From assembly GCF_022348185.1 (NCBI RefSeq), contig NZ_JAKRFD010000002.1, positions 186,001 through 250,000 of the forward strand: DNA of 64,000 nucleotides, in the 5' to 3' direction. The DNA comes from Epibacterium sp. Ofav1-8. Its GTDB lineage: Bacteria > Pseudomonadota > Alphaproteobacteria > Rhodobacterales > Rhodobacteraceae. The notes below the pieces were generated by a model that saw only the letters and a program-made list of their open reading frames with translations, searched no databases and was not told where the DNA came from. Below are positions 38,415 to 45,702 of the stretch, piece after piece. Each line of letters begins with the position of its first letter. The first letter of the stretch is position 1. The position numbers and the translations under genes are program-made.

Positions 38415-39578
38415 TCAGGTCGGGACGATGATCCCGGGCAGGTCGTTGACCAGCATGGTGTCGGACGGCTGGAAATGGATCACGGACCGGATCGACTTTC
38501 CTGCGTGCAACAGGTCAAAGGCCGTGTTGATCTGGTCGTGCGTCATGTTGTGGGTGATGTAGGGATCGACGTCAAAGTCCCCCCGCAGCCATTCATCCAC
38601 CATGCCCGGCAGCTGGCTGCGCCCCAGCACGCCGCCAAAGGCCGATCCGCGCCAGACCCGTCCGGTCACCAGTTGGAAGGGGCGCGTGGCGATCTCTTCA
38701 CCGGCACCCGCAACACCGATGACCGTGCATTCGCCCCAGCCCTTGTGGCAGCACTCCAGGGCCGCGCGCATGACATTGACGTTGCCGATGCACTCGAAGG
38801 AGTAGTCGACGCCGCCGCCCGTTATCTCGACGATCACGTCCTGAATGGGCTGGGTGAAATCCGCCGGGTTTATGCAGTCATGCGCACCGAGGCTGCGGGC
38901 CAGCTCGAACTTGTTCGGGTTTGTGTCGATGCCGATGATGCAAGAGGCACCTTGCATTTTAGCGCCCTGGATGACGGCCATCCCGACCGCCCCGAGACCA
39001 AAGACCGCAACCGTTGCCCCGGCTTCGACCTTGGCCGTGTTGCGCACCGCGCCCATGCCGGTGGGAATGGCGCAGCCCATAACGGAGGCTTTGGCCAGCG
39101 GGGCTTCCTTTGAGATCCTGGCCACCGCGATTTCCGGCAGGACCGTGTATTCGCTGAAGGTGGATGTGCCCATGTAGTGATGGATCATCTTGCCCTTGTA
39201 GCTAAACCGCGAGGTGCCGTCGGGCATCACGCCCTGGCCTTGGGTCTTGCGGATGGTCTGGCAAAGGTTGGTCTTACCCGACTTGATATAGGGGCAGTTC
39301 GGATCCTCGGGCGTATAGAGCGGGATGACATGGTCGCCGGGCTTGAGCGAGGTCACGCCCTTGCCCAGTTCCTCGACGATGCCGACGGCCTCATGGCCCA
39401 GAACGGCCGGGAACAGGCCTTCGGGATCCGCGCCGGAGAGGGTGAACATATCGGTATGGCACAGGCTGGTTGTGACGATGCGGATAAGGACCTCGCCCTC
39501 CTTTGGCCCCTCGAGATCGATCTCTTCGATTTCAAGCGGACGGTTGGGTTCCCAGGCGATGGCGGCACGGGTTTTCAT
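38415..39578 (-). CDS. Class III alcohol dehydrogenase / S-(hydroxymethyl)glutathione dehydrogenase with a degenerate structural-zinc site
   Basis: A 387-residue zinc MDR enzyme closely following glutathione-dependent formaldehyde dehydrogenase (class III ADH; S-hydroxymethylglutathione + NAD to S-formylglutathione). Catalytic zinc ligands Cys40 (SLCHTD), His62 (LGHEA) and Cys169 (MGCAIPTG) and the cofactor motif VFGLGAVG are intact, as are MPDGTSRF and [13 protein letters not shown]. The structural-zinc lobe reads [18 protein letters not shown]: of the four cysteines only Cys95 and Cys106 remain, with Asp92 and Ile98 at the other two positions. GAGGG precedes the start. A proposed Zur box lies 33 nt upstream, shared with the divergent GlxA-type gene. 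Confidence 0.92.
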
Positions 39579-39610
39579 GGCATTTCCCTCTGTTGTGGAG
39601 TGGTTGCCTG

Positions 39611-39627
39611 ATGTTACATTATCACAT
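39611..39627. promoter_or_regulatory. Proposed Zur box, copy 1
   Basis: ATGTTACATTATCACAT, a 17-bp near-palindrome (one mismatch in the 6-bp arms). It matches the box at 45182-45198 in 13 of 17 positions, both containing TGTTAC-N-TTAT-N-ACA. It sits between the divergent dehydrogenase and GlxA-type genes. Confidence 0.6.
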
Positions 39628-39700
39628 TGTGAGGGCGAGGCGTTCGACCCCTCGGATCTGGCCAATCAACGGGCCGTATCGGCCACAACAGGGATCAGAC

Positions 39701-40723
39701 ATGTCTGCAAATCAGCACCTTGCCCCGAGGATGGACCAGCGGCGGCACGTCGCCTTGGTGATTTATCCGGGCTTCAAGACATTGGAGGCGACGGGGCCGC
39801 TCAGTGTTCTGGGCTATGCCACGCGGCATCTGGCCGAGGCGGGGCATGCCGGGGGCTATGACGTCACCATCGCAGCGCCCGAAGTGGGTCACATCCCCTC
39901 GGATACGGCAATGTCGCTGGAGGCAACGGTCGCCCTGAAGGAGCTCGGCGCGCCGGAAACGGTCCTGATCGCCGGCGCCGCCCGGATCGAGGAGGTGCTC
40001 TCTGGACAACACGCGCTGGTGGACTGGTGTCGCGAGAACGGACCGCGGGTTCGGCGCTGCGCCGCGCTTTGTACCGGGTCGTTCTTTCTGGCGGAGGCTG
40101 GTCTGCTGGAAGGGCAGCGCGCGGCGACACATTGGAATTACGCCGAACGGCTGCGCCAGCGCTATCCGGAGATTGATGTGGATGCCGATGCGATCTTTGT
40201 GCAGGCGGGCCGTTTCTGGACCTCTGCGGGGGTCACGGCGGCGATCGACCTGACGCTGGCCTTTGTCGAACAGGATTACGGTCGTGACGTAGCGCTCGGG
40301 GTGGCGCGCGACATGGTGATGTACCTCAAGCGCCCCGGTGGGCAATCACAATTCAGCACCTTGCTGACGGGGCAGATGGCGGGCGCAACCAGCATGACCA
40401 AGGTGCTGACCTGGATGAGCGACCGGCTGGATCAACCGCTGAGCCTGAGTGACATCGCCGCCGCGCATGGGATGAGCGTGCGCAGCCTGACCCGCGCCTT
40501 CACGGCCGAGTTTGCAGTCGCGCCGATGGCCATGCTCGAAGCGCTGCGATGTGACCGGGCCAAGGCGTTGCTGCTCGATACGGACCTGCCACTAAAGACC
40601 CTAGCCTATCGCGCCGGGTTTCAGTCGGACGAGCAAATGCGCAAGGCCTTTCGCCGCCGCTTTTCCCTGTCGCCGCGCGACTACCGGGCGCGGTTTGCGA
40701 CCTCCGGCGCACCGCCTGGCTAG
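39701..40723 (+). CDS. GlxA-type transcriptional regulator (DJ-1/PfpI amidase-like + AraC domain)
   Basis: A 340-residue regulator. Residues about 15-190 are a DJ-1/PfpI (GATase1-like) domain with the nucleophile-elbow-like CAALCTGSFFLAEAGLLEGQRAATHW; residues about 230-335 are an AraC double helix-turn-helix (PLSLSDIAAAHGMSVRSLTRAF, LKTLAYRAGFQSDEQMRKAFRRRFSLSPRDYR). Such proteins (GbdR, ArgR, CdhR types) activate catabolic genes on binding amines or amino acids. ATG 39701 is the clear start. It is divergent from the dehydrogenase and shares its promoter region and the proposed Zur box; its own ligand is unknown. Confidence 0.9.
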   Translation: MSANQHLAPRMDQRRHVALVIYPGFKTLEATGPLSVLGYATRHLAEAGHAGGYDVTIAAPEVGHIPSDTAMSLEATVALKELGAPETVLIAGAARIEEVLSGQHALVDWCRENGPRVRRCAALCTGSFFLAEAGLLEGQRAATHWNYAERLRQRYPEIDVDADAIFVQAGRFWTSAGVTAAIDLTLAFVEQDYGRDVALGVARDMVMYLKRPGGQSQFSTLLTGQMAGATSMTKVLTWMSDRLDQPLSLSDIAAAHGMSVRSLTRAFTAEFAVAPMAMLEALRCDRAKALLLDTDLPLKTLAYRAGFQSDEQMRKAFRRRFSLSPRDYRARFATSGAPPG

Positions 40724-45144: not shown

Positions 45145-45181
45145 GCTGGCCTCTTTACAGTGTGTTGCCTTTCGTTCAGGG

Positions 45182-45198
45182 GTGTTACGTTATAACAC
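45182..45198. promoter_or_regulatory. Proposed Zur box, copy 2
   Basis: GTGTTACGTTATAACAC, with perfect 6-bp arms GTGTTA/TAACAC and a 5-nt centre, midway between the divergent COG0523 operon and hisI. Its AT-rich TGTTA/TAACA arms are like known alpha- and gammaproteobacterial Zur sites (TGTTATAATATAACA type). Confidence 0.75.
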
Positions 45199-45228
45199 TG
45201 CGTTTTACAAGAAGCCGGAGAAGGCGAT

Positions 45229-45702
45229 ATGACACAACTGCACTTTCAGCCCCGCACCACCGTGGAACAGGTCGAGGAAAGCACCGACCTTGCGCCCAAA
45301 TTCGGCGAGGATGGTCTGATGCCCTGCATCACCACGGACGCAACCACGGGCGAGGTGCTGATGCTGGGTTGGATGAATGCCGAGGCCTTTCGCCTGACCA
45401 TCCAAACCGGCGAGGCGCATTATTTCAGCCGCGCCCGGCAGGTGCTGTGGCACAAGGGGGCGACCTCCGGCCTGGTTCAGACCGTGGTCGAGGCGCGCAT
45501 CGACGACGATCAGGACGCCCTGTGGCTGCGTGTCGATGTGACCGGCTCCGGCGCATCCTGCCACGTGGGCTATCGGTCCTGTTTCTACCGCGCCGTGCCA
45601 CATGGCGCAGAGGCCGGGATGCCGCTGACCTTTGTTGAGGCGCGCAAGACCTTCGACCCGGTGGCGGTCTATGGCGATGCGCCGAACCCGACCCAACTCT
45701 GA
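45229..45702 (+). CDS. hisI: Phosphoribosyl-AMP cyclohydrolase HisI variant lacking a zinc cysteine
   Basis: A 157-residue HisI (histidine biosynthesis, opening of the PR-AMP ring). Conserved parts: DATTGEVLMLGWMNAEAFRLT, YFSRARQVLWHKGATSGLVQTVVEARID and GASCHVGYRSCFYR. Canonical HisI binds zinc through three cysteines, the first within D-C-D-x-D. Here that segment is Asp92-Asp93-Asp94-Gln95-Asp96: the magnesium aspartates stay but the first zinc cysteine is Asp93; Cys111 and Cys118 remain. HisI2 paralogues with altered zinc ligands are reported in Zur regulons. GGAGAAGG precedes the start. Divergent from the COG0523 operon across the proposed Zur box. Confidence 0.92.
   Translation: MTQLHFQPRTTVEQVEESTDLAPKFGEDGLMPCITTDATTGEVLMLGWMNAEAFRLTIQTGEAHYFSRARQVLWHKGATSGLVQTVVEARIDDDQDALWLRVDVTGSGASCHVGYRSCFYRAVPHGAEAGMPLTFVEARKTFDPVAVYGDAPNPTQL

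Follow-up and report, generated by a model that had tools for sequence, protein, structure and literature searches.

Which signal switches on the genes between positions 38415 and 45702 of a 64,000-nucleotide stretch of the Epibacterium sp. Ofav1-8 genome (contig NZ_JAKRFD010000002.1, positions 186,001 to 250,000; this whole stretch is referred to as the window), and what do their products have in common? The locus encodes a formaldehyde dehydrogenase (FDH2), a DUF1826 protein, an iota-class carbonic anhydrase (iota-CA), a threonyl-tRNA synthetase (ThrRS2), a COG0523 protein and a HisI-type cyclohydrolase (HisI2), together with a GlxA-type regulator. Profile matches agreed with the identities that a first-pass annotation of this DNA had assigned to the first six. 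Judged from its sequence, the locus is very probably a Zur-controlled isozyme cassette, which would provide zinc-lean replacement enzymes at low zinc.

The first-pass annotation had reported two matching 17-bp sites in divergent promoters about 5.6 kb apart. Both are present, with 13 of 17 bases in common and a spacing of 5,571 bp. Box 1 (GTGTTACGTTATAACAC; 45182–45198, core 45183–45197) is located between HisI2 on the plus strand and the COG0523 gene on the minus strand, 31 bp and 38 bp from their respective starts. Box 2 (ATGTTACATTATCACAT; 39611–39627, core 39612–39626) lies between the GlxA gene (plus strand) and FDH2 (minus strand), 74 bp from the start of the former and 33 bp from the start codon of the latter. 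The inverted repeat is near-perfect in box 1 and imperfect in the right arm of box 2 (TGTTA versus TGTGA). When a degenerate core derived from both sites was searched with two mismatches or fewer allowed, only these two sites matched within the window, compared with 0.15 matches expected from shuffled sequences; two or more matches occurred in 1 of 100 shuffles. A box was also found in the counterpart of the box 1 promoter region at six other loci (L077, L079, L080, L102, L103, and L215). A scan of positions 38300–45800 for the sigma-70 consensus returned no promoter-like site, such a scan being uninformative in a GC-rich genome.

Paracoccus denitrificans belongs to the same order as the host. 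An independent matrix was built only from the five Zur boxes described in that species (PMC5387054, Table 7), which are found in promoters of zinc-induced genes and on fragments that were shifted by Zur in electrophoretic mobility shift assays; the zinc dependence of the shift was shown there on the zur/znuA promoter. With this matrix, box 1 ranked first (20.5 bits) and box 2 second (19.4 bits) of all 15-mers in the window, and the best site that did not overlap them reached 11.8 bits. A score of 19.4 bits was reached in none of 20 base-shuffled windows. Compared with the individual P. denitrificans boxes, box 1 shares 10–13 and box 2 shares 10–12 of 15 positions, and the znuA box is the closest to both (13 and 12 of 15, respectively).

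The whole genome (4.76 Mb, 37 contigs) was then scanned. It encodes a ZnuABC transporter and Zur. The zur gene (contig 4, C4:112662) adjoins znuCB-like frames and is divergent from a gene for a His-rich ZnuA; the best NCBIfam match of its product is Zur PRK11639 (E 5e-33, under the cut-off of the model). The first-pass annotation had proposed to abandon Zur control if the site were missing at the zur and znu genes. The site is present there, as the zur/znuA intergenic region contains GGTTATGATATAACA and a weaker second site, TGATATGTTACAACA, 38 bp away. The core TGTTANNNTATNACA occurs four times in the genome without mismatch, compared with 0.25 occurrences expected at the GC content of the window. 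Two of these are the window sites, from which the pattern was derived; independent evidence comes from the other two, both of which are at zinc genes: one ~20 bp before a ZigA-type COG0523 gene (COG0523b, contig 5) and one directly before zinT (contig 11). The P. denitrificans-only matrix scored the sites at znuA/zur, COG0523b, and zinT at 20.1, 24.2, and 20.5 bits, respectively, and gave no strong box at the loci of the normal FDH, ThrRS, HisI, and beta-class carbonic anhydrase (best 8.4 bits). At two mismatches, the core was not enriched overall (91 forward matches versus 132 in the control), and therefore no two-mismatch match was relied on apart from the exact ones and those at zur/znuA. 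Further one-mismatch matches are at C1:42002 and C2:61146. Since the window sites are the two top-scoring ones in the window under the independent matrix, and since the other exact copies in the genome and the close variants at zur/znuA sit at zinc genes, the window sites are, by sequence, almost certainly Zur operators. The P. denitrificans-only matrix also picked out a Zur-like site (16.4 bits) where a triosephosphate isomerase-like frame starts (L038:4996–5010, contig 1). A TonB-dependent receptor-like frame (L035:5483–7453) directly precedes the boxed ZigA-type COG0523 gene, with no evident box in the upstream stretch inspected.

The gene downstream of box 2 encodes FDH2 (38415–39578, minus strand), an S-(hydroxymethyl)glutathione dehydrogenase, i.e., a class III alcohol dehydrogenase (TIGR02818, 648 bits, cut-off 544). 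Like human ADH5 and E. coli FrmA, it matches the family over its full length and carries the catalytic zinc ligands (C40, H62, and C169 in the alignment to human ADH5). It differs from both in its promoter Zur box, in a C-terminal extension of ~18 residues, and in the structural zinc site. Half of this site had been described as missing, and the alignment bears this out: two of the four cysteines are lost, with D92 and I98 at the positions that we take to be C97 and C103 in human ADH5 numbering. The lobe reads EDPNCPYI, compared with ECRECDYC in FDH1, the second copy in the same genome, which is 60% identical and has four structural cysteines. Medium-chain dehydrogenases without structural zinc exist, sorbitol dehydrogenase being an example, and loss of the structural zinc should therefore be tolerable in principle. 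FDH2 is apparently an undescribed isozyme, with a predicted content of one zinc.

To place FDH2 among its relatives, 141 distinct FDHs were compared (matches that begin no later than residue 6 and extend at least to residue 250, with one copy kept of genes identical over the first 400 bases; one source list comprised the best 80 of at least 586 confirmed stretches). Four structural cysteines are present in 120 of them and two or fewer in 21, and none has three. The catalytic Cys-His-Cys is present in all 141. The same two cysteine positions are lost in all 21 variants, and all have D92; the variant of Erwinia sp. S63 has also lost a third cysteine (C106). In a tree of 81 rows (the 21 variants together with 60 canonical FDHs out of 120), the variants fell on one side of a single branch with support of 99/95. 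Those from Rhodobacterales include Celeribacter, Pseudooceanicola, Salipiger, Ruegeria, and Sagittula. Outside this order, variants were found in Pararhizobium sp. ih9 and in the gammaproteobacteria Erwinia sp. S63 and G439, whose family code is also that of genomes placed with Halomonas in the tree. A Desulfurellaceae bin contributes the most diverged variant (L163, 70%). FDH2 is rare: matches of at least 82% were found in 13 of 394 family genomes (its own and two partial genes included), and among 398 genomes drawn from the phylum, matches above 70% were confined to its own genome and G439. The FDH of G270 (L219) is split into two frames, and only the aligned piece was used; a variant-like FDH at a contig end in G083 (L220) covers only residues 119–386 and was left uncounted.

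The variants are also set apart by their promoters. The 300 bp upstream of each FDH were scanned with a matrix of nine boxes, among which neither the window nor any FDH promoter was represented. At a threshold of 13 bits, 11 of the 21 variants had a box directly upstream, but only 5 of the 120 canonical enzymes did (Fisher p 1.4e-7). The difference persisted at 15 bits (9 versus 5, p 8e-6) and at 19 bits (6 versus 5, p 0.0015), and column-shuffled matrices at 15 bits marked a mean of 0.075 of the 21 variants. In eight alphaproteobacterial loci, including the window, the box is located 32–34 bp before the FDH2 start codon; one of these (L104) carries a weaker box of 10.4 bits in the same place. 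At five further loci (L080, L212, L214, L217, and L218), DUF1826 and FDH2 are encoded in this order on one strand, with a strong box heading the apparent operon, the first gene of which encodes a Fur-family, Zur-like protein in L212, L214, and L218. In total, a Zur-type box precedes 17 of the 21 variants, either at their own promoter or heading an apparent operon. COG0523 proteins are encoded near many FDH2 genes. Around 72 canonical FDHs (from the best 80 of at least 586 stretches), no match above 90 bits to COG0523a, COG0523b, DUF1826, HisI2, Zur, or ZnuA was found in flanks of up to 10 kb on each side. The association between FDH2 and predicted Zur sites extends to Rhizobiales and Gammaproteobacteria. 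The L212 cluster contains two DUF1826 genes.

The second enzyme of interest, iota-CA (41436–41909, minus strand), belongs to COG4337. It matched NF047901 with E 9e-53; its 179 bits are under a cut-off of 350 that was set for a longer model. It also matched the solved metal-free iota-CAs 7c5v/7c5w (E 6e-42) and 7c5x (E 4e-61). COG4337 carbonic anhydrases are reported to be active without metal, with Thr106, Tyr124, His197, and Ser199 important in Anabaena all2909 (PMC8132391). Like all2909, the window protein has the catalytic Thr/Tyr/His/Ser set: Thr58 and Tyr76, which are 18 positions apart as in all2909, and the HHSS motif at 149. A signal peptide is predicted for most bacterial COG4337 members (PMC8132391). 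The window protein departs from these in its predicted link to Zur and in its likely location: its open frame of only 165 amino acids is too short to include a signal peptide, which predicts activity in the cytosol. Judged from these features, iota-CA should be a cytosolic enzyme of the metal-independent type. Matches to iota-CA were found in 28 of 295 family genomes, its own included, and 17 of the others are at least 60% identical. It lies beside COG0523 in 4 of these 17 (G139, at a contig end, G226, G053, and G056). At L102–L104, it is also inside the cassette of Celeribacter sp. HF31 and Pseudooceanicola endophyticus and inside a reduced cassette of Salipiger bermudensis.

HisI2 (45229–45702, plus strand; PF01502, E 2e-29), a phosphoribosyl-AMP cyclohydrolase paralogue, starts on the other side of box 1. 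The absence of one of its zinc cysteines had been pointed out earlier and was confirmed: the first of the three zinc cysteines, which we take from the M. thermautotrophicus structure, is replaced by Asp (IDDDQDA, compared with VDCDRDA in HisI1 of the same genome), and the other two are kept. The change is identical in six intact close HisI2s (the window, L102, L103, L215, L077, and L080). On the minus strand, the apparent operon starts with the COG0523 gene (43993–45144; PF02492, E 4e-49, and PF07683), which encodes a GTPase of the CobW metallochaperone family, and continues with ThrRS2 (41979–43898; TIGR00418, 689 bits), iota-CA, and DUF1826 (40759–41406; PF08856, E 6e-55). Ordinary FDH, HisI, and ThrRS paralogues with intact zinc residues are encoded in the same genome, together with one beta-class carbonic anhydrase.

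Strong conservation within DUF1826 falls on HxD, R..CTYRG, H.S.P, and R residues. They include an HxD...H pattern that may resemble that of Fe(II)/2-oxoglutarate enzymes; no structural or fold support for this was obtained. Sequence and profile searches of DUF1826 against the PDB gave nothing credible, and the AlphaFold model had a pLDDT (predicted local distance difference test) of 37, with an alignment of only four close sequences. No DUF1826 relatives were found in viral contigs in our scan. Degraded-looking genes were seen for HisI2 in L104 and DUF1826 in L080. The gene on the far side of the box 1 counterpart in L103 is CysRS-like, and frames resembling CysRS paralogues were noted by eye beside the HisI2/COG0523 box at L080:2041–3381, L103:1011–2357, and L215:8068–9411. 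Just 3' of HisI2 in the window, a cobalamin riboswitch (RF00174, 137 bits; 45799–46008, plus strand) is followed by a TonB-dependent receptor-like frame that ends at 48070.

The FDH2 promoter may receive a further signal. A GlxA-type AraC regulator (39701–40723, plus strand; PF01965 and PF12833) is encoded divergently from FDH2, and its counterpart occupies the same place in L102, L103, L104, L105, L107, and L077 (65–79%) and in Erwinia (L108, 42%). When the FDH2 upstream regions were aligned, two conserved blocks were seen: the Zur box and a direct repeat, TGGCC(A/G)..., with a spacing of ~21 bp (39656–39686, identified by eye), which is shared by several Rhodobacterales. Direct repeats at this spacing are a common layout of AraC-family operators, and the repeat is a possible operator of the GlxA/AraC regulator. 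As both the divergent gene and the repeats are conserved, FDH2 may well respond to another signal besides Zur.

From these sequences, we infer repression by Zur, induction at low zinc, a one-zinc stoichiometry for FDH2, and a replacement function for the cassette, which could operate as follows. With sufficient zinc, Zn-Zur bound to both boxes would repress HisI2, the COG0523-ThrRS2-iotaCA-DUF1826 operon, and FDH2. As zinc becomes short, Zur would be released and the spare low-zinc enzymes made. The metal-free, cytosolic iota-CA would then stand in for the one beta-class (zinc) carbonic anhydrase of the genome. FDH2, having given up the structural zinc and kept the catalytic one, would need one zinc per subunit instead of two, and HisI2 would work with a weakened or altered zinc site. 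The COG0523 chaperone may steer the remaining metal, and ThrRS2 would be an extra copy. With somewhat more doubt, we favor a broader proposal, in which the FDH2 clade would be a previously undescribed group of one-zinc class III alcohol dehydrogenases for zinc starvation that are controlled by Zur, have moved between Alphaproteobacteria and Gammaproteobacteria, and are preceded by Zur boxes in both; in Rhodobacterales they would be paired with a metal-free carbonic anhydrase, and FDH2 may be a COG0523 client and respond to GlxA.

Several observations weigh against a cassette of zinc-lean replacements or narrow its reach. ThrRS2, which is 57% identical to ThrRS1 elsewhere in the genome, has all three E. 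coli-type zinc ligands (presumably Cys, His, and His) aligned and intact. It would thus belong to the cassette by regulation and not by zinc loss, and the idea that all the paralogues are zinc-free was ruled out. The first-pass description of a zinc-sparing set is corrected in this respect. Among the variant FDHs, that of L163 shows no sign of Zur, and that of L221 was left unjudged because of N in its upstream sequence. In L215, FDH2 is only a neighbor, ~4–5 kb from a HisI2-box-COG0523-CysRS cluster, and in L216 other sequence separates the DUF1826-FDH2 pair from a box that is ~0.7–0.8 kb away, next to a divergent Zur-like gene. The five boxed canonical FDHs, from Marinomonas (L170 and L178), one further family (L237 and L242), and Carnimonas (L114), have their boxes 130–195 bp upstream; in L170, L178, L237, and L242, the Zur-like box TGTTAYATTATAACT lies 130–143 bp upstream of four-cysteine FDHs. 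A box therefore does not require loss of the zinc site. The remaining 13 of the 17 iota-CA orthologues had no box within 300 bp (best 8.4 bits), which rules out a general link of iota-CA to Zur in the family; as the box accompanies only part of the orthologues, iota-CA appears to have been recruited into the Zur cassette in some lineages. A genome of the same genus, G293, had no match to iota-CA or FDH2 at the cut-offs used.

The intact ligands of ThrRS2 are what would be expected if the paralogues, although controlled by Zur, served as an extra dose of enzyme or for zinc scavenging, and if the lost residues merely reflected drift after duplication. Raised dosage was proposed by Haas 2009 for paralogues that keep their sites, and zinc residues are conserved in the Zur-regulated HisI, CysRS, and ThrRS described there (PMC2770081). 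Against this explanation stand the loss of the identical two positions in 21 of 21 variant FDHs, with no three-cysteine form among 141 and an intact catalytic site throughout, the same HisI2 change in all six intact close HisI2s, and the reported activity of COG4337 carbonic anhydrases without metal (PMC8132391). We therefore regard this explanation as unlikely. FDH2 might instead be differently metallated, with D92/C95/C106 or the catalytic site taking iron, cobalt, or another metal from the COG0523 protein. Asp can ligate metals, D92 is present in all variants, and metallochaperones of the COG0523 family are encoded close to many FDH2 genes. Some metal could still be held by D92, C95, and C106, which would speak against a single zinc. 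The fourth position of the lobe is Ile, and C106 is lost in Erwinia sp. S63, which indicates that the lobe site is not kept as a set of ligands, and the catalytic ligands are unchanged. A different metal in FDH2 thus seems quite improbable.

It is also conceivable that a different member of the Fur family (Fur, Irr, or Mur) acts at the boxes and that the genes respond to a metal other than zinc, as the genome encodes four FUR-domain proteins and Fur-family operators look alike. This is hard to reconcile with the resemblance of the sites to the Zur-shifted P. denitrificans boxes and with their location at znuA/zur, zinT, and the ZigA-type COG0523 gene. The second ZnuA-like/FUR pair of the genome, on contig 7 (C7), has no such site (best 8.5 bits), and control of the locus through this pair was ruled out. 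We consider another regulator very improbable.

The Zur-controlled cassette has partial counterparts in known systems. In P. denitrificans, the Zur regulon likewise has a 15-bp box, a divergent zur/znuA pair with two boxes, and a box at a COG0523 gene. It differs in that the zinc-depletion Tables 1–5 of that study name no such dehydrogenase, carbonic anhydrase, HisI, or ThrRS, with hypothetical genes such as pden1339-1340 unassigned (PMC5387054). COG0523, DUF1826, HisI, ThrRS, CysRS, and a carbonic anhydrase are predicted to be Zur-regulated in the clusters of Haas 2009 (PMC2770081), which agrees with the earlier placement of COG0523, ThrRS, HisI, and DUF1826 in Zur regulons. The retention of zinc ligands in ThrRS2 fits the conserved zinc residues of the Zur-regulated ThrRS in that work. 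The clusters differ from the window in their beta- and gammaproteobacterial hosts, in the gamma class of the carbonic anhydrase, and in the lack of an FDH among the nine families listed; as the zinc residues of HisI are conserved in them, the change in HisI2 sets it apart (PMC2770081). A DUF1826 gene was found by RNA-Seq in a Zur study of Francisella (PMC5786701). Corynebacterium adhA is likewise an alcohol dehydrogenase gene tied to Zur. In C. diphtheriae, its expression is activated by zinc-loaded Zur; in C. glutamicum, Zur does not bind or regulate the gene, and the product is described as a zinc enzyme, which is the opposite logic (PMC6711530, PMC2823685). A review table lists adhA and B. 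subtilis YtiB, given as a carbonic anhydrase, among Zur targets (PMC6103462).

The first-pass annotation had also suggested that the combination of the carbonic anhydrase and the dehydrogenase was undescribed. Among the top-ranked results of the open-licence literature searched, neither an iota-CA linked to Zur nor an FDH in a Zur regulon was found, and to this extent the suggestion stands; as regards carbonic anhydrases in general, it has to be narrowed, as other classes are already present in Zur regulons. In passages of PMC7029138, PMC4176598, and PMC5007448, no such enzyme is named as part of a Zur regulon, and PMC4528141, in which FDH and Zur terms occur together, concerns FrmR. The regulon itself is therefore of a known kind, and by sequence it is FDH2, and to a lesser extent iota-CA, that look like new members.

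Surface seawater contains little zinc, and methylated compounds are a source of formaldehyde in roseobacter-type bacteria. Backup enzymes under Zur control have been proposed before, but in the literature searched they include neither formaldehyde detoxification nor the metal-free class of carbonic anhydrase. If the proposed function is correct, formaldehyde detoxification and CO2 hydration would both continue when zinc runs out, and a dehydrogenase with a single zinc would illustrate how cells can economize on zinc in an enzyme that keeps its catalytic metal. Two FDH isozymes in one cell, one with and one without the structural zinc, would provide a clean test system, and the locus suggests possible clients for COG0523 chaperones, the targets of which remain debated.

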